A program made the translations under genes and the position numbers. A stretch of DNA of 64,000 nt from the NCBI RefSeq assembly GCF_900111495.1, contig NZ_FOIU01000002.1:1-64000 (forward strand), read 5' to 3'. Every line of letters starts with the position of its first letter. Position 1 is the first letter of the stretch. The stretch is from Chryseobacterium wanjuense (GTDB taxonomy: Bacteria; Bacteroidota; Bacteroidia; Flavobacteriales; Weeksellaceae). This document shows positions 14,350 to 29,945 of this stretch, one piece after another. The notes under the pieces are model-generated. The model was given only the letters and a program-made list of their open reading frames with translations. It was not told where the DNA came from and searched no databases.

Positions 14350-16110
14350 ATGGAATCAAAACAGCAACAGACCAAATGGTCACAGTTCCTATCCTTAATT
14401 GTAGTCTTCTTTTTCTGGGGATTTGTCGCAGCAAGTAATGATATTCTAATTCCGGTTTTCAAGAAATGGTTTGTACTTTCCCAAGTGCAGAGTCAGCTTG
14501 TTGCCTGGGCATTCTATGTAGCTTATTTTGTAGGATCAGTCATCTTTTTCCTGATCTCTCTGAAAAGCGACATCCTTCAAAAATTCGGCTATAAAAAAAC
14601 ACTGGCTGTAGGACTGGGATTATCCGCATTAGGAGCTTTCTTGTTTGTACCTGCCGCTGCTGCTGCCAATTTCTGGTTTTTCTTAACGGCACTTTTCATT
14701 GTTGGACTAGGATTTTCCGTTCAACAAATCGTCGCCAATCCTTTAGCTATTAAAATGGGAAGCCCACAGACCGGAGCTCACCGTTTGACGTTAGCGGGAG
14801 GAATCAACTCTTTGGGAACTACGATCGGGCCTATCTTAGTAGGTATTGCCCTTTTCGGAATGGGAAATAAAGAAGATTCTGCTCCCAAAAATCAGAATTT
14901 ATCCAAAATTGAAATCGTAAAAAACGAATATCAAACTCATAAGGATGAACTTTCTAAAAACATTATTGAATTAAAAAAAGATACGCAGGATGATCCTGTA
15001 AAAGTAAATGAAGTAATTTCTACTATTGAAAAAAACATTGCTGATATTGACAGTCAAATAACATCAATCGATCAAAACAGCGGTGCTTCTGATGCTCAGG
15101 TAGATCAGTATTCTGCCAAGCTTGGAGAGATTAAACAAAAATCTACCAACATTACCTATCCTCTGGAGTTTGTGAAGGAGAATTTAAAAATGGTAAAAGT
15201 TCCATTTATTGTTCTTGGTGTTGCCTTTATTTTGGTGGCCATCTTTATGCTTTTCTCAAAAATTGAAGATCCTGCCAAAGAAGAGGAAGCCCTGATCGAT
15301 GAACCTGCAAAATTCAACATCTTCCATTATCCACAGCTGTATTTAGGAATGCTGGCAATTTTCATCTATGTAGGAGTTGAAGTATCCATCATCAGTAACC
15401 TTCCGGCTTTATTGCATACTAAGGAATTCGGAGGCGTTCTGGAACACAATATCGCTCCTTTCGTTTCTTTGTATTGGGGAAGTTTAATGATCGGTAGATG
15501 GAACGGAAGTATCAACGTATTCAATACGTCTAAAACGACGAACCTTATTCTAAAATTCGTAGTTCCTTTCATCGCATTCGGAATTATCATATTCTCTAAT
15601 GAATTAAGCGGTAAAGACGTTTCTGCTTTCTACATCTATGCATTATGGATTGTTGCCTTTATTATCATGAGCTTCATCGGTGGTAAAAACGCAGGGAAAA
15701 CATTAATGATATTCGGAATTGCAGGAGTAGTGATGATGTTTTTGGGACTTGTATATCCGGATAAAGATCTTGCTAAATATTTCTTTATTTCAGGAGGTCT
15801 TTTCTGTTCGATCATGTGGCCGTCTATTTTTGACCTTGCCATTGCAGGACTTGGAAAAAATACCGGTAAAGCATCATCATTCCTGGTAATGATGATTTTA
15901 GGAGGAGGAATTATTCCTTTGGTTCAAGGATGGATTTGTGATTTCGACAAATCAAGCCCCGATGGAATTATGGGAATTACATGGACACATTTTTCATACG
16001 TGATTCCTATTCTGTGCTTTGTTTATCTTGCTTTTTACGGTTTTGTCACACCGAAAATCCTTAAAAAACAGGGTATTGAAATGGGTGAAACAACATCCGG
16101 TGGTCACTAA
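14350..16110 (+). CDS. Sugar MFS transporter (FucP/FHS-like) with long central loop
   Basis: A major facilitator superfamily permease of the fucose/glucose-galactose-proton symporter type. The N-terminal helix (FFFWGFVAASNDILIPVFK) and the FSVQQIVANPLAIKMG segment are typical of this family. It has 586 residues, while relatives usually have 400-450. The excess is a hydrophilic, coiled-coil-like insert at about residues 178-275 between helices 6 and 7 (rich in Lys, Glu, Asp and Gln, no hydrophobic segment). The C-terminal half has six more membrane segments. A -7 box TATATTTG lies at 14,319-14,326. The substrate is unknown. The DUF3810 gene follows after 1 base. Confidence 0.85.
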   Translation: MESKQQQTKWSQFLSLIVVFFFWGFVAASNDILIPVFKKWFVLSQVQSQLVAWAFYVAYFVGSVIFFLISLKSDILQKFGYKKTLAVGLGLSALGAFLFVPAAAAANFWFFLTALFIVGLGFSVQQIVANPLAIKMGSPQTGAHRLTLAGGINSLGTTIGPILVGIALFGMGNKEDSAPKNQNLSKIEIVKNEYQTHKDELSKNIIELKKDTQDDPVKVNEVISTIEKNIADIDSQITSIDQNSGASDAQVDQYSAKLGEIKQKSTNITYPLEFVKENLKMVKVPFIVLGVAFILVAIFMLFSKIEDPAKEEEALIDEPAKFNIFHYPQLYLGMLAIFIYVGVEVSIISNLPALLHTKEFGGVLEHNIAPFVSLYWGSLMIGRWNGSINVFNTSKTTNLILKFVVPFIAFGIIIFSNELSGKDVSAFYIYALWIVAFIIMSFIGGKNAGKTLMIFGIAGVVMMFLGLVYPDKDLAKYFFISGGLFCSIMWPSIFDLAIAGLGKNTGKASSFLVMMILGGGIIPLVQGWICDFDKSSPDGIMGITWTHFSYVIPILCFVYLAFYGFVTPKILKKQGIEMGETTSGGH

Positions 16111-16111
16111 T

Positions 16112-17161
16112 ATGATTACTTTATATAAGAAAAAAAGATTTTGGGCGGGTTTATTACTTGCCCAATTTCTTTTGTTTTATGTTTTCTCAAAATCCGGTGT
16201 AATGATTTCTTTTTTTGAACGTTTTTTTGAACTTCAGAAAGCCGTTCACCAGATCATTTTCTCCTGGATTCCTTTTTCGTTGGGGGATGTGCTTTATATT
16301 TTGCTTGGTATTTTTCTGATGTATTGTATTATTAAATGTTTTAAAAAGACAAGCAGAAACATTTCATTATTAAGAATTTTACTCATTATTAATGTCTTTT
16401 ATTTCGTCTATCAGATATTTTGGGGGATGCTTTACTTCCAGATTCCGATTATTAAAAAATTATCGAGTCAGGAAGAGCCGACCGTGGCTAAAGCAAAAGT
16501 ATTAGCATTAAAATATTTAACCCAATGTAAAGAAACAAGGAAAAAAGTAAAGCAAGACCACAATGGAATTTTTGTAGTGACTGATCTGAAATCTATTCAA
16601 AAAGAAATCCTTTTTCAGCAATCGAAACTACCGGAATATATCTCCGATAAAAAAGCGCCACAGGTTAATTCCTTTAAACCAAGTTTGTTTAAAAATGTGA
16701 TGAGTTTTACTGGGATTCTGGGCTATTACAACCCTTTCACGGCAGAAGCGCAATATAATTCTGAATTGCCCAATACATATATTCCTTTTACATCTGCACA
16801 CGAAAGCTCGCATCAGCTTGGCTTCGCACGAGAACAGGAAGCAAATTTTGTAGGCTATCTTATCGGTATTCATTCGAAAAACATCGAATTGCGCTACAGC
16901 ACAGAATATTTTACGTTAAAAAGTTTATTGAACTTTATTGTAGATGAAGATCCTGAATTTGTAAAATCTGTTTTGGCCAACTATTCTCCCGAAATGAAAA
17001 AAGACAGAGCTTACGAAAAAAGTTTTGTGCTAAAACATCAGGGATTTCTGAATGAGTTTTTCGGTTTCACAAACAACCTTTTTCTGAAGAGCAATCAGCA
17101 GGAAGGATCTGTAACATATTCCTATTTTATTGACCTTTTATTAAATTATGAAAAGGTCTAA
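16112..17161 (+). CDS. DUF3810 family membrane protein with zinc-peptidase motif
   Basis: This 349-residue protein has three N-terminal hydrophobic segments (about 8-25, 48-68 and 80-105) followed by a soluble domain. That domain contains HESSH (H230, E231, H234), a fit to the HExxH zinc-peptidase motif, followed by REQEANF with E241 or E243 as a possible third ligand. I recognise the family as DUF3810; its substrate is not known to me. The start at 16,112 is only 1 base after the transporter stop, implying coupled translation. A longer frame from 16,019 is rejected because it would overlap the transporter. Confidence 0.82.
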   Translation: MITLYKKKRFWAGLLLAQFLLFYVFSKSGVMISFFERFFELQKAVHQIIFSWIPFSLGDVLYILLGIFLMYCIIKCFKKTSRNISLLRILLIINVFYFVYQIFWGMLYFQIPIIKKLSSQEEPTVAKAKVLALKYLTQCKETRKKVKQDHNGIFVVTDLKSIQKEILFQQSKLPEYISDKKAPQVNSFKPSLFKNVMSFTGILGYYNPFTAEAQYNSELPNTYIPFTSAHESSHQLGFAREQEANFVGYLIGIHSKNIELRYSTEYFTLKSLLNFIVDEDPEFVKSVLANYSPEMKKDRAYEKSFVLKHQGFLNEFFGFTNNLFLKSNQQEGSVTYSYFIDLLLNYEKV

Positions 17162-17541: not shown

Positions 17542-19740
17542 TTAGTTTTTCGAATTTGTAGGTTGAAAATTAGCAAGGTTAAGCTGCCAACCTATGAAAG
17601 CAAAAATCTTCCCTACTTCTTCATACGCTTTTTCATAAGAAACACTTCCTCCATGTCCGCCCTCATAATCAATTTTTAAAAGGATTGGATTCTGAGAAGC
17701 ATCATTCGCCATTAATTTTGCAGCAAATTTTGAAGGCATCCAAGAAACGACACGCCCATCATTCATTCCAGCAGTAATAAGCGTTGCAGGATATTTTTCA
17801 CCATATTTTATGTGATGGAAAGCATCCATTTCTAGTAATGCTTTAAATTCATCCTGTTTAGATACAGTCCCAAATTCAGGAACATTTCCGGGACCATTAG
17901 GAGTAATCTCATCTCTTAGCATATTGGTGGCACCAACTTCTATGACAGCTACCTTAAATAAATCCGGTCTTTCAGTAATTGCCCTACCTACTGTAATTCC
18001 ACCCGCACTTTTACCCCAAATTGCAACTTTATCCTTTGAAGTATATCCATTATTAATTAAAAATTCTGTGCAATCAATTAAGTCTCGCCATGTATTTGGT
18101 TTTGTTTCTTTATATCCTGCTTTATGCCATCTATCTCCCTTTTCTCCTCCACCTCTCACGTGCGCAATAGCAATAATTCCGCCCTGCTTAGCCCACATCA
18201 AATAACTTCTTGCAAAAAAGGGAGTGTAAGACGTCCCATATGCACCATAAGCTTGTATTATAACTGGAATCTGCTTATTCTTATTAATATTTTTGTCATG
18301 AATCAAAGTTAGAGGAATACTTTCTCCATCTCGCGCTTTGATAGAAGTTTCTTCAACAATGATATCTTTGAATTCCGAATACTCAATCAGAGGATAAAGA
18401 TTTTCTAAAACAAAACTGTTTGTTGTCAAATTATACTTATATCTTCGTTGTTCATTTGCCCACCCAGAGCAATAGATCCAAACATCAGAATATTCTTTTC
18501 CTTTTGTTTCAATTGTAATATCTCCCGCCACAAATGGCAATTTTATAGGAATATCTTTTCCATTTTTATAAAGATAAAATTTAGCCTCAACACCATTTTT
18601 GGTTGTTGTATAATAAACACCATCCTTTGTAAGTGTAAAACTTCGAATTACTTCGTCTTTTTTTTCAGGAACTAAAATTTTAGGATTTTTAAAATCCGGC
18701 TTCTCAAGATTTGTTTTACATAGTTTAAAATTTGGAGAATTATATCCCGACATAAAATACACTTCTTTTCCCATAGGCATTTTATCAAATACTTTGTCTG
18801 CTTTATGATATAATGGTTTCCAACTTTTAATTCCTTTTTCAAAATCTTTTCTGTCTATAATAAAAGTGTCAGTATAATCATCGACATCTCCTAAATTACC
18901 TATAAAATAAGGATCCCCTTGATTAAACTGAACAATCCCAGGAAACCTACCTTCGTCAATATTCAATTCAGGATTATTTACTCTTGAAAAAACATTCTTA
19001 CGGTTCTTAGGGTCGTCCCCTAATCTATAAAATGTAACTTCCGTATTCTTCGTATATTCAGGAGAATCAGTATCTATGACCGGAAAATAAGTATAGAAAA
19101 AGCTAGAATTATCTTCAAGCCATTTTACTTGGCCGACTGAGGTAGGCTCTAGGTTAGTAATTACTTGCGGATAGATATATTTGGTTTTGACATCCATTAT
19201 AATAACTTCAGAAATTTCCTTCCCATTTTCAGACATGGAAATAGCAATTTTACTCCCATCCCAGCTAGGGCTAATGAAATTAATAACAAAATTATGCTGT
19301 TGCTTAGATTCGGGATCAAACGATGAAATAAATATGGAAGGATCATACAGAAATTCTTCTTTTCCTTTAAAGCTTTTTCGATAATATAATTTCGGTATAT
19401 TTTCATGCGCTTCTTTTTTTAAATAAAAATAAAGGTCATTTCCCGTAATTTTTAATTCATTAACAAAAAAACCAGCTTTTTTATCAAATTTCATCCTTTC
19501 ATTTAAATAATAATCTTTATACGGAAGATCTTTAAGAACAGAATCTGTATAATCTGCTTGTCTTTTCATCCAATTGATTGTTTCAGTATCTTTTAGGTTT
19601 TCAAGATTTCTATATTCATCAACTACTTTAGTCCCGAAATATTCATCAGTAATGGGATTTGATGAAGCAAGATTATTTTTCTGAGCACTAATTACTCCCA
19701 ATGTTAATTGAGTAAAAATTATAAAATATTTTTTTTTCAT
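17542..19740 (-). CDS. Secreted prolyl oligopeptidase family protein (S9A), copy 1
   Basis: Prolyl oligopeptidases cut short peptides (usually under about 30 residues) after proline. The 732 residues show a signal peptide (MKKKYFIIFTQLTLGVISAQ), a beta-propeller N-terminal domain (about 75-440) and an alpha/beta hydrolase domain. The catalytic triad reads Ser578 (WGKSAGG), Asp661 (GMNDGR) and His696 (GGHGG). A secreted enzyme of this family and length is known from Elizabethkingia, in the same bacterial family. The gene is the last of the six-gene RiPP operon, 16 bases after the S15-type peptidase gene. It is clearly paralogous to the peptidase at 24,562, with long identical stretches around the active site. 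Exact cleavage site and substrate are unknown; peptide maturation, immunity or degradation are all possible. Confidence 0.93.
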   Translation of the reverse strand: MKKKYFIIFTQLTLGVISAQKNNLASSNPITDEYFGTKVVDEYRNLENLKDTETINWMKRQADYTDSVLKDLPYKDYYLNERMKFDKKAGFFVNELKITGNDLYFYLKKEAHENIPKLYYRKSFKGKEEFLYDPSIFISSFDPESKQQHNFVINFISPSWDGSKIAISMSENGKEISEVIIMDVKTKYIYPQVITNLEPTSVGQVKWLEDNSSFFYTYFPVIDTDSPEYTKNTEVTFYRLGDDPKNRKNVFSRVNNPELNIDEGRFPGIVQFNQGDPYFIGNLGDVDDYTDTFIIDRKDFEKGIKSWKPLYHKADKVFDKMPMGKEVYFMSGYNSPNFKLCKTNLEKPDFKNPKILVPEKKDEVIRSFTLTKDGVYYTTTKNGVEAKFYLYKNGKDIPIKLPFVAGDITIETKGKEYSDVWIYCSGWANEQRRYKYNLTTNSFVLENLYPLIEYSEFKDIIVEETSIKARDGESIPLTLIHDKNINKNKQIPVIIQAYGAYGTSYTPFFARSYLMWAKQGGIIAIAHVRGGGEKGDRWHKAGYKETKPNTWRDLIDCTEFLINNGYTSKDKVAIWGKSAGGITVGRAITERPDLFKVAVIEVGATNMLRDEITPNGPGNVPEFGTVSKQDEFKALLEMDAFHHIKYGEKYPATLITAGMNDGRVVSWMPSKFAAKLMANDASQNPILLKIDYEGGHGGSVSYEKAYEEVGKIFAFIGWQLNLANFQPTNSKN

Positions 19741-19756
19741 ATCTATTAATCGTAAC

Positions 19757-21472
19757 TTAATATTTTAAAATTGGTATTTCTACAAAACTGTTGTTATAAA
19801 ATTTAATTTCCAAAGGCTCATTTGCATCTGCGATCGTTTCATCGCTTACATCTTTTCCGGTTCCGTAATTGAGCTGCCAGAAAGGGCTCTTCACAATACC
19901 AACTATTAAAACCAGTCTGCTTCCATTTTTTATTTTCTTACTTATAAAATCGTAATTATTAATGGGAATAGTTTCAATTTTGCCCGGAGTCAACAGGTTT
20001 CTTTTCTCATTATCCTTTGCAAAACTGGCTCTGGATACATAAGAAGACAACAAAAAATATTGCCCTTCTGATGTTTCTTCGTATAAACTTACATAAAAAT
20101 CTACATCCTTTTTATTAATTGAAAAGCTCAAACTTCCTGAAAAATTTCCTGTCAATTCAAAAGGTTGAGCAAAGGGTTTTGTTTTAAAAAGTAAATTATT
20201 TTTAGTATAAATAAAATGATCAAGAATATTATACTTTAGATTCAATAGTTCTGTAGCATCGGTTCTATCTTTAAGGTCAACCCTTAAAGATGAAAAATTT
20301 TCTTTTTTGTTTTTTGATTGTGATAAGGTCAAATTATTTCCATCATTGTCTAAGTAAAACTTTATTTTATTTTTATTAAAAATGTCAAGCGAATGGGCAC
20401 TCTCCCATCGATTGGCACTCATAACCTGAAAATTAATTTTATCCTTTAAAAATTCAGGTTTTGGTTTATTTTTTAAAACATAATCAAACCACTCCAGCCA
20501 AATTTTATTTAAATCAATGGAAGAAGCGACGGAATCAGTTTTATAACCTCTCAATTCTTTTTTAATAAAACCTTGTGCGCCCCAATGATCGTAAGGTCCA
20601 ATGATCAGATAGTGCTCAGCATTTTGATTATACTGATAATGTTGTTTAAAATAGTACAACACTCCGGATTTGTCTACATCATAATATCCCGTCACAGAAA
20701 GAACCGGAATATTGATTTTTGAAAATTCTTCTTTATAAGGAATCATTTTTTTCCAGTAGTCATCATAAGCAGGATGGTTTAACCACTTTTGAAAAATCGC
20801 ATTCGATTTTCCACTGATTGAATCCAGTTTCCGGAAAGATTTTCCACTTTCATACCATTTTTTAAAAATTGAATTCCATTTTTTTTGATCATAAAAACTT
20901 TTAGCATCAATCATTTTATTGCTGGTTACAAAATCCAGCCACTGCAATGAGTAGCATATGAAAATATTATTATTCATCGGTAAGCTCATGGTTCCGACAC
21001 CTGTTGCAGCTTCTGGGATAATCGTTTTCAAAGCCGGATTGAGTCTTTTCATTGCCGCCCACTGACTAAATCCCGAATAACTTCCCCCGATCATTCCCAC
21101 TTTCCCGTTGCTCCAGGGTTGTTTGATGATCCAGCTAATTGCTTCATTAATATCATCGGCTTCATGTTCGAAAGGCTCAATCTCATTATCACTCAAATAT
21201 TTTCCCCTTGTATGAAGGATTGCACCGACATATCCATTAAGTACGAAATTTTTAACGAGATCAATATTTTTTTTATCCGGATAAATGGTATTGACCAGAA
21301 TGGTGTTTTGAGGTTGCTGATTTTTATTAAAAACCAAAGTCAGAGACAGTGTTGCATTGTCTTTTGTCCGAATGATAATGCTGTCGCGAACGACCATATC
21401 CTTCGTTTCAATTTTTTGAGGAAAGAAAAAACTGAAGGCAAAAAGAAAATATATGAGGAAACTTTTTTCCAT
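19757..21472 (-). CDS. CocE/NonD family hydrolase (X-Pro dipeptidyl-peptidase S15-like)
   Basis: A member of the S15/CocE alpha/beta hydrolases, which include X-Pro dipeptidyl peptidases and acylases. The 571 residues start with a hydrophobic export-type segment (SFLIYFLFAFSFFFPQ). The nucleophile is Ser131 in GGSYSG, the GxSYxG motif of the family. The acid and base are expected in the VTGYYDVDKSG and GPYDHWGAQG segments. The C-terminal third is a jelly-roll (PepX C-like) domain. It lies 18 bases after the LanB elimination-domain gene and 16 before the prolyl oligopeptidase. A second proline-directed peptidase in the operon makes a role in trimming a peptide plausible, but that is inference. 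Confidence 0.87.
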   Translation of the reverse strand: MEKSFLIYFLFAFSFFFPQKIETKDMVVRDSIIIRTKDNATLSLTLVFNKNQQPQNTILVNTIYPDKKNIDLVKNFVLNGYVGAILHTRGKYLSDNEIEPFEHEADDINEAISWIIKQPWSNGKVGMIGGSYSGFSQWAAMKRLNPALKTIIPEAATGVGTMSLPMNNNIFICYSLQWLDFVTSNKMIDAKSFYDQKKWNSIFKKWYESGKSFRKLDSISGKSNAIFQKWLNHPAYDDYWKKMIPYKEEFSKINIPVLSVTGYYDVDKSGVLYYFKQHYQYNQNAEHYLIIGPYDHWGAQGFIKKELRGYKTDSVASSIDLNKIWLEWFDYVLKNKPKPEFLKDKINFQVMSANRWESAHSLDIFNKNKIKFYLDNDGNNLTLSQSKNKKENFSSLRVDLKDRTDATELLNLKYNILDHFIYTKNNLLFKTKPFAQPFELTGNFSGSLSFSINKKDVDFYVSLYEETSEGQYFLLSSYVSRASFAKDNEKRNLLTPGKIETIPINNYDFISKKIKNGSRLVLIVGIVKSPFWQLNYGTGKDVSDETIADANEPLEIKFYNNSFVEIPILKY

Positions 21473-21490
21473 TTCCCTAAATTAATCAAT

Positions 21491-22336
21491 TTACCTGATC
21501 TGATGATTTTGAAAACGAACCGATTTGTAATATCTGAACAAGTAATCATAGATGATCATTTCGAAAACTCTTTGATTTGAGATGAAAATCCTGTTGATAT
21601 TCATGTGAAATATACTCTCGAAAAATCTTTGCAAAGACTGTTTGTCGGTTTTCTCGATAATACTTTCCAGAATTTCATGACAATCAGTTATTTCATTAAT
21701 TATCGTTTCCTTAAAATATTGATAATCCTCAGCTTGCAGAAAATCCAGATATTTGATTTTAAATTCTCTGTATTTTTTATCCAGCTGGCTGTTTAATTTT
21801 TTATCGGCATTAAATTCTTTTTTAAATCCAATATTAGAATATTCAACCCAACTTAGTTTTTCATGAATTGAAAGCCCCAGTCGATTAAGTATCTGATCTA
21901 TATAAAAAACGGAAATAATAATTTTTTCTTCGTCATCAAAATCTAAATATTCCTGCAATACAAGCCTACTATTTTTATAGAAAAGAAATTCTGCTTCCTC
22001 GATAGTCTGCTTTCCATACCTCTCAATCTCTCTGTTATAGGTATCAAATACTAAATTGGAAATTTCTCCGGAAGTGATATATTTTTCTAAAAAGTGATTG
22101 ATCTGAGAGAGAACGATATTATATTGATCAATAGTTATTAACTCAAATCTTATTCTTACATGAGGTTTAGGATCATTATAGCGAATAAAAAACCATTTTT
22201 TGATATATTTTTTTTCTAACAACCAATCGGTTAAAGGTAATATACCTTCATTTAAAACAATATCTGCCGTTTTAATTCCTGTGTAAATTTTAAAGTACAA
22301 CCATTCACTTCCGGGTATAAATTTTCTTTTCATCAT
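21491..22336 (-). CDS. Stand-alone LanB elimination-domain protein (thiopeptide-type)
   Basis: This is the C-terminal half of a class I lanthipeptide dehydratase encoded as its own gene (SpaB C-terminal / thiopeptide-type bacteriocin biosynthesis domain). In known systems it eliminates glutamate from glutamylated Ser/Thr to give dehydroamino acids. The family opening is clear: W-L-Y-F-K-I-Y-T-G near the start, then LLEKKYIKKWFFIRYNDPKP and HVRIRF. I start at the ATG at 22,336, 10 bases after the previous stop, giving 281 residues; a frame from 22,420 would overlap the LanB gene. Other known uses of this fold (pyridine synthase, peptide ligases) cannot be excluded. Confidence 0.88.
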   Translation of the reverse strand: MMKRKFIPGSEWLYFKIYTGIKTADIVLNEGILPLTDWLLEKKYIKKWFFIRYNDPKPHVRIRFELITIDQYNIVLSQINHFLEKYITSGEISNLVFDTYNREIERYGKQTIEEAEFLFYKNSRLVLQEYLDFDDEEKIIISVFYIDQILNRLGLSIHEKLSWVEYSNIGFKKEFNADKKLNSQLDKKYREFKIKYLDFLQAEDYQYFKETIINEITDCHEILESIIEKTDKQSLQRFFESIFHMNINRIFISNQRVFEMIIYDYLFRYYKSVRFQNHQIR

Positions 22337-22346
22337 TGTGCAGCTT

Positions 22347-24560
22347 TTATTGTACTTTATACATTGGAAAAATAAATTCACGTTTAAAATCATCATTTTC
22401 ATTAAATAAAAACTCTTCAATGATTATTGATTTTTCATGTTTTACAGCATCTATAAACATTTTTACCAAGTCATAATTTTCAAGGTTTATCGTGAGTTTG
22501 TTGTCAGACTTTACCCATTGGATCCATTCCGGAATTTTCCTTTCATTTCGCCATTTTCTTATTTCTGAGATGAAATGTTTTTCATCAGAAATTACCCCGA
22601 TTAAAAAATCCTGATCTTTTTCATTAAGCTTCCACTGAGCTTTAGAAAGGATCATATTTTTATATTCCACTCTTGGTAAAAAATGGTAAATATTTTCTAG
22701 CCCATCCCAATCAAAATACAAACCTTTTCTACGATTCTGAGAATTAAAATCTGATAAAAAATGGTAGACCGGCAATGTATTAGAAAAATAATTATGAGCA
22801 TTCGTCAAAAAAGGTTTTACTTCTTTGTTCAATCTTTTAGAGCGCAAAACCATTGTATCATTTTTCAACGAAACATATAAATCATCAATGAGTATTTGAT
22901 TTTCCTTTGGAAGGATAGACTGCGCCAAATAAGGAATCTCATATTTCCTTAGAGTAGGTCTCCGGATAACGTTGCCGATTCTCGCTTCGGGCAAATGGAT
23001 AATTTCTGCCAAAATACAATCAGGATCCAGCTCCTCTTCTTTTTTCACAATCGACTTTGTTAGATTCTGTATTTCCGATCTTTCTGAACAAAATCGTCCC
23101 AAAAGATTGGCTGCACCACTTCCGCTGCTTCCTTCTAGAGATAACTTTTCCTGATTGCTTTCTGAAATAATTTCAGCCATAAAAGAAATTGCATCGGGTA
23201 AATCATCCCAATTTTCTTCAAAATCTTTAAAGTCTTCATCTGATAACTGAATTACTGTTTCATTTTTCCATAAAGCTTCCTGTAATTTTTCATTGAGAAT
23301 CTTATGTACAGAAGTAAGTTTGATATCAATAGTATCTTTTAAGGTTCCCAAAAAATCTAATCCATCCAAGTAAGGATGAACTCCCTTTGCAGAACCATTT
23401 TTTTTATATCCGATCCCAACTTCGGCATCCAAAACATAAGCTAATGGCATTTCCTGGGTTTCAAATCTTTCATGAAATGCTTTTTTAAACTTTTCAAAAT
23501 GAGTTTCCTTTTGAGCCCGAGTAATTTTGTTTAGAAAAATAACAGCATTCTTTAAATCCTTTTTCCAATTTGATGGTACTATAAATTCATTTTTGCTATA
23601 AAGATCTGTTTGAAAAAGAAATTTCTTCTCATAATCAGTTTCGAAATCTTTGATTAAGTCTTCAATCTCAGAATAGACTGAAATTGAATTTCCTAATTGC
23701 TGATCAATCTTATCGAGTTTCTTCTTTATTGAGAGTAATATTTCGGTTTCTTTTTTTGCATTTATTTTAGTTAAAACACAAATTAATTTATCTAAAAAAT
23801 CATCTCCTGAAACATTAGGTTCAATTTCACTTACTAAAACTTGATTTTCAATTAATTCTTCTATGAATTCCCGGGCTTCAGTTTCTGTTATGTGTTCATT
23901 AACTAGTATATCTGTAAGTTGCGTAGTCGTCTTACCAATTCTCGAAAATTCTAATATTTTATGTAATTCCTCTGAAAATGGAGCAGATGAAATGATATAA
24001 TCTCGCTTTCCATGAATATATTCAAATTCAACGTAGCGAATATAATCTCCTACTCTATAAATCGTGTTATTTGGAAAAAATAATAATTGATTTTTTATTT
24101 CTGCCTTTTTTTCAAAACTCTGAGCCAGACAAACCAGAAAATACATATCCAATTTTGTATCCCGGATTTGGTTTTTGGTTGTTAGTTTTTGGTTGTTAGT
24201 TGCAAGTTGACGGTTTTGGGGCGTTGGATTATTCTCGAAGTGACCCAAACCGACTTGTGAAAATAAGCCGAACGGCGTACAACGGGTACTTATTCGGCTA
24301 TAGTATTTTAATATGGTGTTTTTTAGTTTTTGAAATTCTTTTAAAGGCAATTTTTTCCCACCCATCCATTGCTGAATTTCTTCATACAAATATGGAGACG
24401 CCAAATAAATTGCTTCCTGAAAAACAGGATCAACACAGATATTTTTTAATTCATCATCTGTTATCTTTCTCTCACCAAATTCTTGCTTAAAGTTTTTGTA
24501 TGAAAACATAGGAGTACGGATAATGTACTCTTCAAAGAAGTGATAGGGGAAACGGGACAT
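22347..24560 (-). CDS. Lantibiotic dehydratase, glutamylation-domain protein (split LanB)
   Basis: The N-terminal LanB domain transfers glutamate from Glu-tRNA to Ser/Thr side chains of a precursor peptide bound through its leader. The family N-terminus (FEEYIIRTPMFSYKNF) and the motif TRCTPFGLFSQVGLG near residue 95 are typical, as are LEGSSGSGAANLLGRFC and the LAEIIHLPEARIGNVIRRP segment in the second half. The length of 737 residues covers only glutamylation; the elimination domain is the next gene. A 14-base tandem duplication (24,172-24,199) encodes a low-complexity loop near residue 121. The gene starts 1 base after the stop of the upstream peptidase. No LanC cyclase is encoded in the window. 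Confidence 0.92.
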   Translation of the reverse strand: MSRFPYHFFEEYIIRTPMFSYKNFKQEFGERKITDDELKNICVDPVFQEAIYLASPYLYEEIQQWMGGKKLPLKEFQKLKNTILKYYSRISTRCTPFGLFSQVGLGHFENNPTPQNRQLATNNQKLTTKNQIRDTKLDMYFLVCLAQSFEKKAEIKNQLLFFPNNTIYRVGDYIRYVEFEYIHGKRDYIISSAPFSEELHKILEFSRIGKTTTQLTDILVNEHITETEAREFIEELIENQVLVSEIEPNVSGDDFLDKLICVLTKINAKKETEILLSIKKKLDKIDQQLGNSISVYSEIEDLIKDFETDYEKKFLFQTDLYSKNEFIVPSNWKKDLKNAVIFLNKITRAQKETHFEKFKKAFHERFETQEMPLAYVLDAEVGIGYKKNGSAKGVHPYLDGLDFLGTLKDTIDIKLTSVHKILNEKLQEALWKNETVIQLSDEDFKDFEENWDDLPDAISFMAEIISESNQEKLSLEGSSGSGAANLLGRFCSERSEIQNLTKSIVKKEEELDPDCILAEIIHLPEARIGNVIRRPTLRKYEIPYLAQSILPKENQILIDDLYVSLKNDTMVLRSKRLNKEVKPFLTNAHNYFSNTLPVYHFLSDFNSQNRRKGLYFDWDGLENIYHFLPRVEYKNMILSKAQWKLNEKDQDFLIGVISDEKHFISEIRKWRNERKIPEWIQWVKSDNKLTINLENYDLVKMFIDAVKHEKSIIIEEFLFNENDDFKREFIFPMYKVQ
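24172..24199 (-). repeat. 14-base tandem duplication inside the LanB gene
   Basis: TTTTTGGTTGTTAG occurs twice, head to tail (24,172-24,185 and 24,186-24,199), within the dehydratase reading frame. The unit is not a multiple of three, so gain or loss of one copy would shift the frame about 120 codons after the start. The encoded segment is Asn/Gln/Thr-rich. Confidence 0.75.
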
Positions 24561-24561
24561 T

Positions 24562-26739
24562 TTACTTTTTCGTGGGTTCTTTGGGCTGGTAGTCTGGGTG
24601 TCCTAGTTGCCATAATGCAAAGGCAAACATATCTCCTAAATTAGCATATCGTTGTGCTGGAGGAATATTACCTCCATGGCCTCCTTCAAAATCTATTTTC
24701 AATAAAGTAGGATTATTAGAAGCGTTATTAGCCATTAACTTTGCTGCAAATTTTACAGGTTCCCAAACGGTAACTCTCTGATCATTTATTCCTCCAGATA
24801 TAAAAGTTGCAGGATATTTTACTCCTTTTTTAATATGGTGATAAGAATCCATTTCTAGCAGAGCTTTAAATTCTTTTGGATCCTTTATTGTACCAAATTC
24901 TTTTGGCTGCCCATTCGGTGTTGTCTCATCTCTAAGAGGATTCATTACGCCAACCTCTGCAATAACCGCCTTAAATAAATCTGGTCTTTCAGTCATTGCT
25001 CTTCCAACTGTAATTCCTCCGGCGCTGGCTCCCCAAATAGCAACTTTATCTTTTGAGGTATATTTTTCCTTTATCAAATATTCTGTACAGTCTATTAAAT
25101 CCCTCCAAGTATTAGGTTTTGTTTCTTTGTATCCTCCTAAACGCCATTTTTCTCCTTTTTCTCCTCCACCTCTCACATGAGCTACTGCAACCATTCCTCC
25201 CTGATTAATCCATAATAAATACATTTTAGCGAAAAAAGGAGTATAGGATATTCCATATGAACCATAGCTATCAATAAGCACCATATTTTTACCATCTTTT
25301 CTGAGATTCTTATTATATATTAATGATACCGGAATTTCTTCTCCGTCTCTAGCTTTTATGGAAATTTCATTGACTGTTATATTTTTGAATTCAGGATATT
25401 CTGTAATAGGTGTAAGATTCTCAGGCTTCAAAGCATTAATCTTTACATCATATTTAAAACGTTGTCCCTCATTTGCCCAGCCTGAGCATGTTATCCAAAA
25501 ATCAGAGTAATTTACCCCTTTATTTTCTAAATTAATATTTCCAGATGGATAAGGAAGCTGAATAGGACTATCTTTTCCATCTTTGTATACATATAATTTT
25601 GCTTCTACTCCGTTTTTGGTGGTGGTATAATAAATACCATCTTTGGTGATTCTATAACTTTTAATGATTTCATCTTTTTTTTCAGGAACTAAAACTTCTG
25701 GGTTTTTAAAGTTGAAATTATTAATACTCGTTTTACATAGTTTATTAAAAGATGAATTATAGCCCGAAACAAAAACAATGTCATTATTCCATATCTCTAA
25801 ATTTTTTGCTTTATCATTTGGATCAGATAAAGGCTTCCAATTTTTTTTACCCTCTAATAAATCTTTTTTGCTAATGATAAAGGTTTTTCTGTAATAACTA
25901 TAGTCAACAACCATACCTATATAATACTGATCTTCTTGATCAAAATCTAAAAGCATTGGGAACTGATCTTCAGTTATTTTTAATTCAGGATTATTTTTAG
26001 CAGAAAAAATTTCAATTAAATTCGTTGAATCTGTTCCAATTTTGTATAAAACAGTTCTTGTATTTTTATAAAAATCTTTAGATTTAGAATCAATTGTAGA
26101 AAAAGCTACACAAAAAAAGCCAGTGTTATCATTTAGCCATTTAATTCCATCAAAAGAAGCAGGTGCTGTATTAGTAAGAATTTCTGGCTGAATATATTTT
26201 GTTTTAACATCCATAATAATTACATCTGCTAACTCATTCCCTTTTTCAGACATAGAAATAGCAATTTTACTACCATCCCAACTAGGACTTATGTAATTAA
26301 TAACGAAATCATGATTGCGTTCGTTATTTTTATAATTAACAGGATCATAGAGCAATTCTTCTTTTCCTGAAAGTCCATCCTTATAATAAAGCTTAGCTAC
26401 TTTTTCATTTTCGTTTTTCTTTAAATAAAAGTACTTATCATTACCTGTTATTTTCAAATCAGATACAGAATATCCTTGCCTTTTATCAAGTTCTAATCTT
26501 TTCTCTACATAATAATTCCTTTTGGGAATTTGATCAAGAATTGAGTTGGTGTAAGCTGTTTGAGATTTTATCCAATTAATAGTATTAGGATCTTCTAAAC
26601 TTTCCAAATTTCGGTATTCATCAATGACCTTAGTTCCAAAATAACTTTCTGTGACTGGTTTAGAAGGTGATAAGTTAGTTTTCTGGGAATAAGAAAAAAT
26701 CGAAAAAAAACAAATAATGATAAATATTTTTATTTTCAT
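24562..26739 (-). CDS. Secreted prolyl oligopeptidase family protein (S9A), copy 2
   Basis: The second prolyl oligopeptidase of the RiPP operon, 725 residues. A signal peptide (MKIKIFIIICFFSIFSYSQ) is followed by the propeller domain and the hydrolase domain with Ser572 (WGASAGG), Asp653 (GINDQR) and His688 (GGHGG). It is closely related to the copy at 17,542 (same KPNTWRDLIDCTE and ARDGE segments), so one arose from the other. Its position is telling: it lies between the precursor gene (12 bases upstream) and the LanB gene (1 base downstream), where a leader or core protease would fit. The precursor core has one proline. Export means it would act after the peptide leaves the cytoplasm. Confidence 0.93.
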   Translation of the reverse strand: MKIKIFIIICFFSIFSYSQKTNLSPSKPVTESYFGTKVIDEYRNLESLEDPNTINWIKSQTAYTNSILDQIPKRNYYVEKRLELDKRQGYSVSDLKITGNDKYFYLKKNENEKVAKLYYKDGLSGKEELLYDPVNYKNNERNHDFVINYISPSWDGSKIAISMSEKGNELADVIIMDVKTKYIQPEILTNTAPASFDGIKWLNDNTGFFCVAFSTIDSKSKDFYKNTRTVLYKIGTDSTNLIEIFSAKNNPELKITEDQFPMLLDFDQEDQYYIGMVVDYSYYRKTFIISKKDLLEGKKNWKPLSDPNDKAKNLEIWNNDIVFVSGYNSSFNKLCKTSINNFNFKNPEVLVPEKKDEIIKSYRITKDGIYYTTTKNGVEAKLYVYKDGKDSPIQLPYPSGNINLENKGVNYSDFWITCSGWANEGQRFKYDVKINALKPENLTPITEYPEFKNITVNEISIKARDGEEIPVSLIYNKNLRKDGKNMVLIDSYGSYGISYTPFFAKMYLLWINQGGMVAVAHVRGGGEKGEKWRLGGYKETKPNTWRDLIDCTEYLIKEKYTSKDKVAIWGASAGGITVGRAMTERPDLFKAVIAEVGVMNPLRDETTPNGQPKEFGTIKDPKEFKALLEMDSYHHIKKGVKYPATFISGGINDQRVTVWEPVKFAAKLMANNASNNPTLLKIDFEGGHGGNIPPAQRYANLGDMFAFALWQLGHPDYQPKEPTKK

Positions 26740-26751
26740 TAGAAACTGAAA

Positions 26752-26922
26752 TTATTGTTGACCCATAGTTTGACGAATGGTTGGATTATGATCATCATCT
26801 CCATTAAAATTTAAACCTGCTTGGGCTCCACTACCTCCATTAATTGTTTTCATGTCAGTAATCTTCATCAAACGTACTTTGTTTAAAGATAATTTTTTTT
26901 CTTTTTTGACTTGTTTTTTCAT
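26752..26922 (-). CDS. RiPP precursor with lanthipeptide-type leader and cysteine-free core
   Basis: A 56-residue peptide gene at the head of the operon. Residues 1-30 look like the leader of Bacteroidota class I lanthipeptide precursors: Lys-rich start (MKKQVKKEKK), then LSLNKVRLMKITDMKTI and a double-glycine N-G-G at 28-30. The presumed 26-residue core begins SGAQAGLNFN, has an acidic GDDDHNP segment and ends TIRQTMGQQ. It has one Ser, two Thr, one Pro and no Cys, so lanthionine rings cannot form within it. Dehydration of Ser31, Thr49 or Thr53 is possible in principle. Cleavage after Pro48 would release a nine-residue C-terminal piece; that is inference. The lack of Cys and of LanC is the oddest feature of the operon. 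Confidence 0.85.
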   Translation of the reverse strand: MKKQVKKEKKLSLNKVRLMKITDMKTINGGSGAQAGLNFNGDDDHNPTIRQTMGQQ

Positions 26923-26947: not shown

Positions 26948-27004
26948 CAAATAAAAGGATATTTTTCAAATTATCAATAAAATTGTACTATAGATTTATA
27001 AATC
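26948..27004 (-). promoter_or_regulatory. RiPP operon promoter with operator-like palindrome
   Basis: GATTTATAAATC at 26,993-27,004 is a perfect 12-base palindrome, extended on the minus strand to GATTTATAAATCTA (ending at 26,991). A -7-like TTTATTTG lies at 26,955-26,948, 36 bases further on, about 26 bases before the precursor start codon. The same ATTTATAAATCTA sequence with the same 36-base offset precedes the bacteriocin peptides at 29,045-29,100. It is a strong candidate binding site for the regulator encoded between them. Confidence 0.6.
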
Positions 27005-27124: not shown

Positions 27125-28915
27125 ATGATGAAAGTAATATTTTCTATTTTACTATTTTTGAGTGGCTTTATTTATGCTCAAAAAAGTATAGTTGATGCTT
27201 TAAGTGAATTCAATTATTCTCAATTGAAAAGTAAGTTTGATGATTACTATGATAATGATAAAGTTTCCGAATCTAAAATAATTGCGCAATACTATTTACA
27301 AAAAGCAAAGAAAGAGAAAAACAACCTCCAAATTGCGGAAGGCTATATCCTAATACATTTTAATGAAGACTTTCCTACAGCCTTAAAATATATTGATAGT
27401 CTTGAGATTATTACAAAAAACATAAAAGGAAGTTTATACCCTACCAGAACATACTTGATGAAGGGAAATCTATATTTCAAGTATGATTATTTAAAGAAAG
27501 CATTAGACAACTATATTATAGCTTTACAATATGCAAAAGACCAAAAAGATCAAAAGCAAATTGCTTATGCCAATATAAATATTGCTTATTTAAATAATTA
27601 TTTGGGTAAGTATGCAGAAGCAGCCAAAATATTCAGGTATTATCTATATAATCCTAATAATATAACCAATGAATCCCAGCATAATCAAATAAGGGTAAGT
27701 CTTATCAATTGCTATATTGAGCTTAATAAATTAGATTCTGCCAATATTTTAATCAAAGAAGGCCAAACATCTGCGTTTACAGGTAAAAGCAAATATAGTG
27801 TTAATCAATATTTATACTTTTCTGGATATTCTAATCTTAAACAAAAAAAATATACAATTGCCATAAACGAATTAGCAAAGACTTATAATTTTTTTTCCAG
27901 TATCAATGATAATAATGCCAATTATGCATTATATAGTTTGGGCAAATGTTATGATGGATTAAATAATAAAGAAAAGGCTGTTGAATATTTTATCAGATTA
28001 GACTCTAATATACAAAAAACTAATATTACTTTCCCAGAGCTTCGAGAAGTATATACTTATATTATAGACTATTACAAAAAAAAGAATGATAAAGAAAAAC
28101 AATTATATTATATTGATAGATTTTTAAAAGTAGATAAAAAATTAGATGAGCAGTTTGAATATTTATCTACAGAATTACCTAAAAAATATGATACACCAAA
28201 GCTTTTGCAAGAAAAAGAAGACATCATCAACGATCTAAAAAACAGGAAAACATTTTTATACACTTCTATAGGTCTTCTTTTAATAATTTTATTAATACTC
28301 GCCTATTTATATTATAATTCTAAAAAAACAGAAAAAAAACACAAACAAATTGCACAAGATTTAATTCATTCTATTGAACATAAAAATCTTGAAGTTTCTG
28401 ATAAATCAAATGTAGTCTTATTACAAGAACTTGAATCAGCGACAGAAAATCTTCCATTAGATTCATTTGAAAATAATGTTATTCAGAATAATGAAAGTCT
28501 AACGGAAGAAGTTGTTGAAAAGATAGAGATTAAAGCAAATAAAACAATTCCTGAGGATGTAATACAAAATATTCTTAAAGAACTAAGAAATTTCGAAGCC
28601 AAAGAACTCTTTTTAAAAAAAGGGATTACCCTAGCCAATTTAGCAAAAAGTTTGAAAACCAATACTGCTTATCTGTCAGAAATAATCAACACCCATAAAG
28701 GTAAAAATTTTGCCGCTTATCTTAACGACCTCCGGATAAATTATGCTCTCAATCAGCTGGTGGTAGACCGTAGATTTCGTTCTTATAAATTGTCTGTTAT
28801 TGCCGAAGAATTAGGATACAATAATGAGCAGGCTTTTTCTTTAGCTTTTAAGAAAAAAACAGGAACAACATTGTCTATTTATATCAAAGAAATTGAAAAT
28901 TCTCATCAATACTAA
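27125..28915 (+). CDS. TPR-domain, membrane-anchored AraC-type transcriptional regulator
   Basis: The 596-residue protein begins with a signal or anchor segment (VIFSILLFLSGFIYAQ). Tetratricopeptide-type helical repeats follow (about 30-340, e.g. YPTRTYLMKGNLYFKYDYLK). A membrane helix (about 377-397, FLYTSIGLLLIILLILAYLYY) comes next, then a charged linker and a C-terminal AraC-type double helix-turn-helix (about 490-596; ITLANLAKSLKTNTAYLSEI and LSVIAEELGYNNEQAFSLAF). This topology puts the repeats outside the inner membrane and the DNA-binding domain inside, so it could sense a periplasmic ligand and control genes directly. It sits between and divergent to the RiPP operon, next to the bacteriocin peptides, and the two share an operator-like site. 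Which signal it senses is not known; a mature peptide is a natural guess. Confidence 0.85.
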   Translation: MMKVIFSILLFLSGFIYAQKSIVDALSEFNYSQLKSKFDDYYDNDKVSESKIIAQYYLQKAKKEKNNLQIAEGYILIHFNEDFPTALKYIDSLEIITKNIKGSLYPTRTYLMKGNLYFKYDYLKKALDNYIIALQYAKDQKDQKQIAYANINIAYLNNYLGKYAEAAKIFRYYLYNPNNITNESQHNQIRVSLINCYIELNKLDSANILIKEGQTSAFTGKSKYSVNQYLYFSGYSNLKQKKYTIAINELAKTYNFFSSINDNNANYALYSLGKCYDGLNNKEKAVEYFIRLDSNIQKTNITFPELREVYTYIIDYYKKKNDKEKQLYYIDRFLKVDKKLDEQFEYLSTELPKKYDTPKLLQEKEDIINDLKNRKTFLYTSIGLLLIILLILAYLYYNSKKTEKKHKQIAQDLIHSIEHKNLEVSDKSNVVLLQELESATENLPLDSFENNVIQNNESLTEEVVEKIEIKANKTIPEDVIQNILKELRNFEAKELFLKKGITLANLAKSLKTNTAYLSEIINTHKGKNFAAYLNDLRINYALNQLVVDRRFRSYKLSVIAEELGYNNEQAFSLAFKKKTGTTLSIYIKEIENSHQY

Positions 28916-29019
28916 ACTTAGAAAAATAAATTGACATATTTTTTTGAGCCTATTAAATAGATTCCAAACATATTTCCAAAACACACACAAACCATTTAAA
29001 TTCAACTATTTAAACATTA

Positions 29020-29100
29020 TAGATTTATAAAATTATAGTTGTGTATTTATAAATCTAGGATTCATTTGCTTTTTTAGTGTTTAGTTCTTGTGCATCTTTG
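29020..29100 (+). promoter_or_regulatory. Peptide-cluster promoter with inverted operator repeat
   Basis: TAGATTTATAAA (29,020-29,031) and TTTATAAATCTA (29,046-29,057) are exact inverted 12-base arms 14 bases apart. A -7-like CATCTTTG at 29,093-29,100 begins 36 bases after the second arm, the same offset as in front of the RiPP operon. TTTG at 29,065-29,068 is a possible but long-spaced -33 box. The rest of the 28,916-29,230 interval is A/T-rich leader without a convincing gene. Confidence 0.6.
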
Positions 29101-29147
29101 TCTCAGGCAAAAACACAAATTCTATTTTCTTTTTATATGTGCGCAGT

Positions 29148-29219
29148 ATGAAAAGTAAATATAAAGCTGATCAGCAAAAAAGCCCATGTCAGGGATTGTA
29201 TGACAAAAAGAAACTTTAA
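29148..29219 (+). CDS. Possible 23-residue leader peptide
   Basis: An ATG at 29,148 opens a 23-codon frame (starting MKSKYKADQQ, one Cys, ending in a run of Lys) that stops 11 bases before the first double-glycine peptide. It lies in the leader after the putative promoter. It has no secretion leader and no recognised motif. It may be a chance frame. Confidence 0.25.
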   Translation: MKSKYKADQQKSPCQGLYDKKKL

Positions 29220-29230
29220 AATTTAAAAAA

Positions 29231-29359
29231 ATGAAATTAACGTTTTTAACAACAAATGAGCTATTAACAATTGAAGGTGGCTCAACTGGTGGAGACCCAC
29301 AAACAATTAATATTCTTGGTAATGTTATATATACAGGTACTCCACCTTTAAATCCTTAA
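29231..29359 (+). CDS. Double-glycine leader peptide 1 (short core)
   Basis: A 42-residue peptide with a 17-residue leader (MKLTFLTTNELLTIEGG) of the C39-processed type: a Glu-Leu-Leu segment a few residues before Gly-Gly. The 25-residue core is Thr-, Asn- and Pro-rich (STGGDPQTINILG and then NVIYTGTPPLNP) with no Cys and no strongly amphipathic helix. It differs from the next three peptides in being short. It could be a bacteriocin or an inducing peptide; I cannot tell. It begins the four-peptide cassette that precedes the exporter genes. Confidence 0.7.
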   Translation: MKLTFLTTNELLTIEGGSTGGDPQTINILGNVIYTGTPPLNP

Positions 29360-29375
29360 TAACAATTAAATTAAA

Positions 29376-29552
29376 ATGAATTTAGAAAAATTAAACTTAG
29401 TAGAGCTTGAAGCTCATGAAACTATAATAGTAAACGGTGGCGGTAATGGCGGCTGGTGGTGGCTAGCTGAACAGGTTATTGATAATTGGAGCGAAATTAA
29501 AGATGGCCTTTCAGACGGATGGAATGGTCATTACAATCCACCAAAAAAATAA
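29376..29552 (+). CDS. Double-glycine leader peptide 2 (Trp-rich)
   Basis: A 58-residue peptide whose leader (MNLEKLNLVELEAHETIIVNGG) ends in Gly-Gly at 21-22. The core starts G-N-G-G-W-W-W-L and continues as a likely amphipathic helix with five Trp in total (AEQVIDNWSEIKDGLSDGW), ending in a basic PPKK tail. No Cys. The make-up fits an unmodified class II-type bacteriocin. It is 16 bases after peptide 1 and 19 before peptide 3. Confidence 0.75.
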   Translation: MNLEKLNLVELEAHETIIVNGGGNGGWWWLAEQVIDNWSEIKDGLSDGWNGHYNPPKK

Positions 29553-29571
29553 TAATTAAAAAATAAATAAT

Positions 29572-29727
29572 ATGAAAAACTTAGAAACACTTACAAGCTC
29601 TGAATTATTAGCAGTTAACGGAGGTGATGGTTTTTGGTATGATGTAGCTTATGCAGTCGGTGCTCTAGCACATGAATATGTACATCAGGTTGCATTGGCA
29701 GGCTATTATGCTAGTGCTGGTCATTAA
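29572..29727 (+). CDS. Double-glycine leader peptide 3 (paralogue of peptide 4)
   Basis: A 51-residue peptide with leader MKNLETLTSSELLAVNGG and a core starting DGFWYDVAYAVGA. Leader and first 13 core residues are almost identical to peptide 4, then the two diverge: here the core runs through LAHEYVHQVALAGYY to a short Gly-His end. Small residues spaced at helix intervals (G, A) suggest helix packing in a membrane. The pair may be a two-component bacteriocin or simply a duplication. Confidence 0.78.
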   Translation: MKNLETLTSSELLAVNGGDGFWYDVAYAVGALAHEYVHQVALAGYYASAGH

Positions 29728-29762
29728 TTCTCATTAAATTATTTAATTAAAAAATCTACAAT

Positions 29763-29945
29763 ATGAAAAATTTAGAAACACTTACAAACGATGAACTATT
29801 ATCAATTAATGGCGGTGATGGATTCTGGTATGATGTTGCTTATGCAATCGGAGCTGGTGCTCATGCTGCAGCTAATGCAATAGTAGCTGCCGCAGATACA
29901 ATCGCTTCGCATCCTGTTGGAGGACCGAGAGGTGGTTATAATTAA
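29763..29945 (+). CDS. Double-glycine leader peptide 4 (Ala-rich core)
   Basis: A 60-residue peptide with leader MKNLETLTNDELLSINGG and core starting DGFWYDVAYAIGAG. An Ala-rich helix (AHAAANAIVAAADTIASH) follows, then a flexible VGGPRGGYN end. The GAGAHAAAN pattern gives several small-xxx-small helix contacts. It is 35 bases after its paralogue, and a terminator-like hairpin follows at 29,966. A pore-forming, unmodified bacteriocin is the most likely role. Confidence 0.8.
   Translation: MKNLETLTNDELLSINGGDGFWYDVAYAIGAGAHAAANAIVAAADTIASHPVGGPRGGYN

Follow-up and report, generated by a model that had tools for sequence, protein, structure and literature searches.

A LanC-free split LanB cassette in Chryseobacterium wanjuense as a candidate dehydropeptide signalling system that shares operators with a neighbouring bacteriocin-like operon

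Pinensin is a class I lanthipeptide of Bacteroidota, and split LanB proteins without LanC, which yield dehydroalanine (Dha) and dehydrobutyrine (Dhb), are known from the goadsporin (GodF/GodG) and thiopeptide (TbtB/TbtC) pathways. Plantaricin and blp are pheromone-controlled class II bacteriocin systems, and Rap, PlcR, Rgg and ComR are receptors of the RRNPP group. Here we describe a locus that can be compared with each of these, found in a stretch of 64,000 nucleotides from Chryseobacterium wanjuense (assembly GCF_900111495.1, contig NZ_FOIU01000002.1, positions 1 to 64,000 of the forward strand; hereafter referred to as the window). A six-gene operon of the window encodes a double-glycine precursor peptide, the two halves of a split LanB dehydratase and three serine hydrolases, and a regulator with TPR and AraC-type domains is encoded divergently from it. 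Judging from the sequences, we lean towards the view that these genes form a dehydropeptide signalling cassette controlling neighbouring antimicrobial operons.

Several papers bear on such loci. A lanthipeptide survey was mined by the LanC family PF05147 (PMC7268733), and would therefore miss loci of the present kind unless a LanC gene lay close by. A Chryseobacterium cluster with LanA, LanB and LanC, of the sister kind described below, has been expressed, and LanABC clusters are given for Chryseobacterium sp. OV715 and Runella (PMC9993889). Chryseobacterium also makes graspetides (chryseoviridin); TPR proteins occur near some graspetide loci, with a role left unclear there (PMC8939145). For Bacteroidales, no LanB is reported, and TPR proteins near two clusters are presented as possible pheromone-linked regulators (PMC10352776). 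Chryseobacterium is credited with 56 genus-specific families of ribosomally synthesized and post-translationally modified peptides (RiPPs) (PMC10734526). We found no published description of a gene set combining the precursor, split LanB, S9A/S15-type hydrolases and a TPR-AraC regulator in the literature searched, which included few subscription journals.

The genes and sites of the cassette are as follows.

26752 to 26922, minus strand: double-glycine precursor of 56 amino acids, with leader MKKQVKKEKKLSLNKVRLMKITDMKTINGG (ending in ...TINGG) and core SGAQAGLNFNGDDDHNPTIRQTMGQQ, which has no Cys, one Ser and two Thr
24562 to 26739, minus strand: first S9A-family serine hydrolase (Pfam Peptidase_S9 and S9_N), with an N-terminal signal-peptide-like segment; triad Ser572, Asp653 and His688 kept, S1 Trp of prolyl oligopeptidase (POP) missing
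22347 to 24560, minus strand: LanBn, the glutamylation half of a split class I dehydratase (Pfam Lant_dehydr_N, 454 bits)
21491 to 22336, minus strand: LanBc, the glutamate-elimination half (Pfam Lant_dehydr_C, 209 bits)
19757 to 21472, minus strand: S15/CocE-NonD-type serine hydrolase (Peptidase_S15, 129 bits), with a signal-peptide-like segment and motifs GGSYSG, GYYD and GPYDH
17542 to 19740, minus strand: second S9A-family serine hydrolase (Pfam Peptidase_S9 and S9_N), with a signal-peptide-like segment and motifs GKSAGG, NDGRV and EGGHG
27125 to 28915, plus strand: divergent regulator (Pfam TPR and AraC-type helix-turn-helix (HTH)), with a signal-peptide-like start by eye
26989 to 27003, minus strand: operator 1 (ATTTATAAATCTATA), between precursor and regulator, 66 bases from the precursor ATG, with a TTTG element in between that we take to be of the Bacteroidota -7 type
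29018 to 29059, no strand assigned: operator 2, made up of two imperfect site copies whose centres are about 22 bases apart; it precedes the operon of the peptides b1 to b4 and is followed by a TTTG element

The six genes of the operon lie on one strand, at the coordinates and with the short spacing (1 to 18 bases) that a sequence-only reading of this DNA had reported; the gaps are 12, 1, 10, 18 and 16 bases. LanBc, read from its ATG, has 281 residues, and the TTG-started frame in the program-made list extends to 22420. While the five enzymes scored far above the Pfam cut-offs, the precursor had no match in Pfam and only sub-threshold matches in NCBIfam (TIGR04149, 13.7 bits; NF038153, 13.5 bits), and four related precursors had none in NCBIfam. 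The Pfam scan of the operon revealed neither an exporter nor a recognisable immunity gene; YcaO, azole enzymes and a [4+2] cyclase were also absent. The host genome (4.67 Mb in 9 contigs, 99.99% complete) contains one gene of the Lant_dehydr_C family PF14028 and no match to PF05147. Thus, the absence of LanC that had been noted for the operon extends to the whole assembly, and a LanC acting in trans in this genome was rejected on the same result.

To the residues essential in NisB and conserved in MadB belong R89, R93, T95, D128, D308 and R483, and R822, R864 and H1005 (PMC12241602). By hand count along the printed MadB alignments, R89, R93, T95, D138, D319 and R489 of LanBn align with the catalytic residues of MadB/NisB, and R63, R106 and H244 of LanBc align with their elimination residues, so that the two halves together retain nine of nine. 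The split dehydratase therefore looks active. Because LanC is lacking, the core is Cys-free and the LanB active site is intact, the predicted product is not an ordinary lanthipeptide, in agreement with the sequence-only reading.

We collected relatives from about 115 split PF14028 places among the matches listed, taking 100 of them and 20 further regions. Removal of identical LanBn copies reduced 135 stretches to 123 loci (numbered with the prefix L), of which 104 belong to an upper set, the clade of the window LanBn, and 19 to a lower, sister set; the two are separated by an identity gap between 41% and 47%. PF14028 is present in 134 of 173 genomes of the same genus and the upper-set clade in at least 92 of the 173; among these at least 92 genomes, 38 have no LanC anywhere and 54 have one somewhere. 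Upper-set LanBn also occurs in 7 genomes from three other genera of the family Weeksellaceae. Outside the family, no LanBn at 47% identity or more was found among 395 order-level and 395 class-level genomes (overlapping samples), and relatives in other families of the order show 34–42% identity.

In 99 of the 104 upper-set loci, LanBn is preceded on its own strand by a hydrolase of the S9A or S15 type (starting within 2.6 kb in 97), the nearest being S9A in 73 and S15-type in 26. LanBc follows LanBn in 103 of the 104, the regulator lies within the stretch in 98, and 101 stretches are free of LanC; in the other three (L128, L129 and L206) LanC adjoins a second LanB. In the sister set, LanC directly precedes LanBn in 17 of 19 loci. 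Thus, the hydrolase occupies the LanC slot. The regulator, precursor, hydrolase, LanBn and LanBc recur jointly across the genus and the three other genera, so the grouping is not due to chance. A leader hidden Markov model (HMM) found precursors in 84 of the 104 loci; the precursor is thus co-conserved with the LanB and peptidase genes across the genus, a check that the sequence-only reading had proposed, and the opposite outcome is rejected.

For comparison among loci we coined the following types. Type 1 has a first S9A hydrolase of at least 65% identity to that of the window; types 2 and 4 have an S9A below 65%, with a divergent and a co-directional regulator, respectively; the S15 types have an S15 hydrolase, 14 of them with a co-directional regulator. 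Different cassette types adjoin the same downstream neighbours (genes like 16019–17161 and 14350–16110) in different species, which points to exchange of cassettes at one chromosomal site. Some copies are irregular: LanBn of L043 is split by roughly 0.9 kb (about 10090–11000), possibly an insertion sequence; LanBn or hydrolase copies seem to have decayed in L044, L054 and L142; and S9A pieces stand in series upstream of LanBn, four in L132 and two each in L036 and L142.

Conserved sites link the precursor promoter to the next operon. When the upstream regions of the 31 type 1 loci were aligned, ATTTATAAATCTATA was the strongest block before the TTTG element. A scan of these loci allowing up to two mismatches on either strand found it at the precursor promoter in 31 of 31 (29 of 31 on the forward strand alone), and a second copy, past the regulator and before the next operon, 1.9–2.15 kb upstream, in 26 of 31. 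In 12 control windows 0–2 of the 31 loci had a match, and dinucleotide shuffles gave 79/3100 and 78/6200. At about the same place, the loci of types 2, 4 and S15 bear palindromes that are related to the type 1 site yet distinct from it, and they have further sites before neighbouring operons. With three patterns compared, a 12-base piece of the type 1 site fitted best in 28 of 31 type 1 loci; TAAATTNATNAATTTA fitted best in 15 of 23 type 2 loci, the type 1 piece doing so in the other 8; and CGAAATTNATNAATTTCG fitted best in 9 of 13 type 4 and 13 of 14 S15 loci. The operator sequence thus tracks the regulator type. Shared regulation of the precursor operon and the neighbouring operon is well supported by these conserved sites, and we infer that the regulator HTH binds them.

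The divergent regulator and the shared operators had been overlooked in the sequence-only reading. The regulator is a single TPR-transmembrane-AraC protein and not a pair of histidine kinase and response regulator. Its structure model (pLDDT 82.6, pTM 0.57) has a TPR superhelix (helices within residues 31–344), a long membrane/coil helix (357–435) that holds the hydrophobic segment, and an AraC-type HTH part (477–595). Its TPR part may be extracytoplasmic, to judge from the signal-peptide-like start, recognised by eye, and the modelled membrane helix. In a Foldseek search with the model, LGN ranked first, and structures of Rap bound to pheromone appeared from rank 29 onwards.

The leader HMM yielded 87 precursors in its 84 loci, and 9 further loci have a precursor seen by eye, with a truncated or non-ATG start. 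Next to the hydrolase none was found in 11 of the 104 loci, among which L031 and L033 end at contig ends and L060 and L071 have a precursor about 10.5 kb away. Forty-six of the 87 have no Cys, 41 have one and none has more. Thus, the Cys-free precursor of the sequence-only reading holds for the window core and not as a family feature. In the 31 type 1 precursors, exemplified by DDPVPTPLQTPSGK, an acidic residue precedes Pro and a Thr lies close to Pro; 25 of the 31 are Cys-free. Each of the 24 type 2 precursors has one Cys, followed seven places later by Ser in 22 (C....[ND].S). Ten of the 13 type 4 precursors are Cys-free, and among the 14 of the S15 types nine have a T[IV].[DE].T motif, five have GDTT and six have one Cys. 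Among 32 precursors from genomes of the genus that lack LanC, 17 keep one Cys.

The core type tracks the hydrolase and regulator types. We quantified this by Mantel tests, for which 65 S9A loci (80 loci when S15 was added) were taken from the 84 in which a precursor was found. For the 65 S9A loci, core correlated with hydrolase at 0.62 (0.52 given LanBn) and with LanBn at 0.48; hydrolase correlated with regulator given LanBn at 0.92, and core with the sensor half given the HTH half at 0.55. By these distances, the regulator, precursor and hydrolase are inherited jointly and partly apart from LanBn.

The hydrolases are probably secreted serine hydrolases. By a crude rule, a signal-peptide-like start is present in 60 of 78 S9A and 31 of 34 S15-type proteins, and the Ser-Asp-His triad of S9A is invariant in 28 aligned sequences. 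In porcine POP, the S1 Trp that stacks on proline is Trp595. In 73 of the 78 S9A proteins, the stretch that matches this part of the POP structures lacks Trp; four could not be scored, and the one with Trp is a distant S9 protein. The closest Protein Data Bank (PDB) matches of the window S15-type protein are cocaine esterase and alpha-amino acid ester hydrolases, and among the S9A matches in the PDB are Peptide cyclase 1 and OphP. The 'three proline-directed peptidases' of the sequence-only reading thus derive from a family name and not from an observation: the label is doubtful for the S9A pair, for which a simple prolyl specificity was rejected for want of the S1 Trp, and the S15-type protein has esterases and ester hydrolases as its nearest structural matches.

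Behind operator 2, the window carries the following genes.

29231 to 29945, plus strand: four small double-glycine peptides, b1 to b4, the proposed target operon
30001 to 30444, plus strand: CAAX-type membrane protease (Pfam)
30460 to 31542, plus strand: HlyD adaptor (Pfam)
31601 to 33760, plus strand: C39-peptidase ABC exporter (Pfam)
33888 to 35393, plus strand: VKOR/thioredoxin protein, also found beside the cassettes of some relatives
35499 to 37691, plus strand: second C39 ABC exporter, likewise found beside some relatives' cassettes

The peptides b1 to b4 have the appearance of unmodified class II bacteriocins, here in a Gram-negative host: b4 scores 22.1 bits for the lactobin A/cerein 7B class IIb family, above the NCBIfam cut-off of 21.5, and b3 has sub-threshold matches to such families. 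Two of the four are near-duplicates after GG (DGFWYDVAYA), and the set is kept in L035 at 82–93% identity. The genes from 30001 to 33760 are the candidate exporter for b1 to b4, and possibly for the precursor too. Between operator 2 and b1, the region 29060–29230 resembles that of some relatives, accidental reading-frame products such as KSPCQGLY recurring in L035 and L057; a conserved untranslated RNA element may precede the peptide operons. An Rfam search at E up to 0.1 returned nothing in 29060–29230, and its one match, at 29917–30000, was below the gathering score.

Across the 31 type 1 loci, the next operons were classed by our own sorting of reading frames, with family searches for some loci and likeness of the reads for others. 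They encode class II-like peptides with a C39 exporter in 4 (the window included), other double-glycine peptides in 3, graspetides in 9, VKOR/C39 in 3, AMP-ligase in 4, GLPGLI proteins in 2, outer-membrane receptors in 3 and TAT lipoproteins in 3. Of the 23 loci in the first five classes, 22 have the second operator, as do both GLPGLI loci and two of the three receptor loci; the three lipoprotein loci all lack it. In the family searches, L048, L122 and L213 yielded matches to the grasp-with-spasm maturase family TIGR04192 above threshold, and the incomplete pieces of L098 and L105 gave sub-threshold ones; L066 matched AMP-binding, L083 GLPGLI, and L032 and L086 outer-membrane barrels.

L210, from another genus, has four further operator sites, each starting 96–98 bases before the ATG of a small Cys-rich leader peptide (three with GG, one with AG), at +5.4 to +11.3 kb from the precursor. 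In L046, L047 and L212, a one-Cys precursor and the regulator, accompanied by an S9A hydrolase in L046 and L047, stand beside a LanC lanthipeptide cluster with multi-Cys precursors of TCCWC- or TCGLC-type cores. The precursor is type-2-like in L047 and L212, which have sites at the precursor and just past the regulator; at two mismatches, about two matches per stretch are expected by chance.

A sequence of events compatible with these data can be outlined. LanBn, whose catalytic residues are kept, would transfer Glu from Glu-tRNA to Ser/Thr residues in the core, and its elimination by LanBc would leave Dha/Dhb. The nearby C39 exporter would cut the leader at GG, and the S9A and S15-type hydrolases, with their signal-peptide-like starts and triads, would trim the core or process it in some other way, either in the periplasm or beyond it. 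The mature peptide, which we infer to be the signal, would bind the putatively periplasmic TPR domain of the one-protein receptor, whose cytoplasmic AraC-type HTH would act at the sites observed before the precursor operon and the bacteriocin/export operon; regulator, precursor and hydrolase would move jointly as a specificity cassette. Three products had been offered by the sequence-only reading, namely a linear dehydropeptide, a peptide modified through another use of the LanB fold and a signal trimmed by secreted peptidases; the last fits best given the regulator and operators. More tentatively, with doubt slightly outweighing belief, we propose a new class of cell–cell signal: short peptides dehydrated by LanB, either linear or bearing no more than one thioether, which are exported, processed by S9A/S15-type hydrolases in the periplasm and read by a transmembrane TPR-AraC receptor, with swappable specificity cassettes for many antimicrobial operons across Weeksellaceae. 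If true, Bacteroidota would own a dedicated peptide signal for antimicrobial production that uses lanthipeptide enzymes without a lanthipeptide, and the operator would be a handle on inducers of silent bacteriocin and graspetide clusters in Chryseobacterium.

Several observations weigh against signalling by this peptide. The second operator is absent in five type 1 loci (L221, which has a graspetide neighbour, L101, L082, L087 and L088), and the promoter sites of type 2 are weaker, with 12 of 23 loci positive for the pattern used. In the host genome, the one-mismatch operator count (5) equals that of the reversed-pattern control (5), and a genome-wide regulon was rejected on this ground; none of the three matches outside the window lies before a double-glycine peptide. 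The top structural matches of the regulator are LGN and not pheromone receptors, and TPR domains bind many ligands. The sensor correlation in the Mantel tests is gone (-0.05) once LanBn and hydrolase are controlled, and the leader, included as a control, correlates with the hydrolase (0.49) nearly as strongly as the core does (0.52). Thus, the Mantel results reflect cassette linkage and not proven ligand–receptor coevolution. L033 has a clade LanBn and an S9A hydrolase with no LanBc within 10 kb after LanBn (after 4415). This locus would suit a LanBn that acts as a peptide aminoacyl-tRNA ligase (PEARL-like) and adds an amino acid to the precursor instead of dehydrating it, as lone LanB-like proteins of other RiPPs do; such a role is scarcely credible here, given that LanBc follows LanBn in all the other upper-set loci and that the window LanBc keeps its three elimination residues.

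The dehydrated peptide could itself be antimicrobial, with the regulator answering another cue and turning on all local antimicrobial operons, and with the hydrolases maturing the toxin or protecting the producer. Most characterised LanB products are antibacterial, and an operator common to bacteriocin-like and graspetide operons fits this co-regulation equally well. We nevertheless consider it unlikely: the window operon itself lacks a recognisable immunity or exporter gene, the types of core, hydrolase and regulator change in concert, and one-Cys precursors with a similar leader and regulator stand beside the multi-Cys LanC clusters of L046, L047 and L212, as if controlling them. Under another reading, the system makes ordinary class I lanthipeptides: their one Cys would react with Dha/Dhb unaided by LanC or with the help of an unlinked cyclase, and the window copy would have lost that Cys. 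This view draws on the one-Cys precursors (41 of 87), the regular Cys-to-Ser spacing in type 2 and the LanC genes present somewhere in 54 of the clade genomes. It is improbable in view of the LanC-free host genome, the Cys-free window core, the single Cys retained in 17 of 32 precursors of LanC-free genomes and the complete lack of two-Cys precursors. A very improbable alternative is that an S9A or S15-type hydrolase does the work of LanC, joining the two ends of the exported dehydropeptide as a macrocyclase or acyl-transfer enzyme; its position in the LanC slot, the matches to Peptide cyclase 1 and OphP, and the missing S1 Trp, which makes the specificity unlike that of a normal POP, would agree with this, whereas S9A and S15-type hydrolases interchange (73 versus 26 loci), their secreted location implies action after export, and no bacterial S9A macrocyclase is known to us from a LanB cluster.

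The signalling cassette proposed here overlaps with described systems in part. FlaP, the prolyl oligopeptidase of the class III lanthipeptide flavipeptin, cuts after Pro in the leader and is, like the hydrolases of the window, an S9 peptidase encoded with a lanthipeptide-type enzyme (PMC10885120); the window S9A proteins differ in that they look secreted, lack the POP S1 Trp and are part of a LanB system. With the class I lanthipeptides of Bacteroidota the cassette shares LanB proteins of the same Pfam families, a KKLxLxK-type leader and the predicted glutamyl-tRNA chemistry, but it has no LanC, at most one Cys, a hydrolase in the LanC slot and a TPR-AraC regulator with shared operators, whereas the sister clade of this genus carries LanC, together with multi-Cys precursors in those loci where precursors were seen. 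The goadsporin and thiopeptide pairs are likewise split LanB proteins without LanC; unlike them, the window operon has no YcaO, azole enzyme or [4+2] cyclase, and instead has secreted hydrolases and a regulator cassette. As in plantaricin and blp, a double-glycine peptide, a nearby C39 exporter, a sensor-regulator and a common operator before signal and bacteriocin operons are found together, but the peptide is predicted to be LanB-modified, one transmembrane TPR-AraC protein replaces the kinase and response regulator, a secreted hydrolase is added and the host is a Gram-negative member of Bacteroidota. Finally, the RRNPP receptors resemble the regulator in having a TPR domain, which here is proposed to bind a processed peptide and to control DNA binding, and Rap–pheromone structures are among the fold matches of its model; the cassette sensor, in contrast, may lie outside the cytoplasm and is predicted to be joined through a membrane helix to an AraC-type HTH, so that the peptide would act without re-import.

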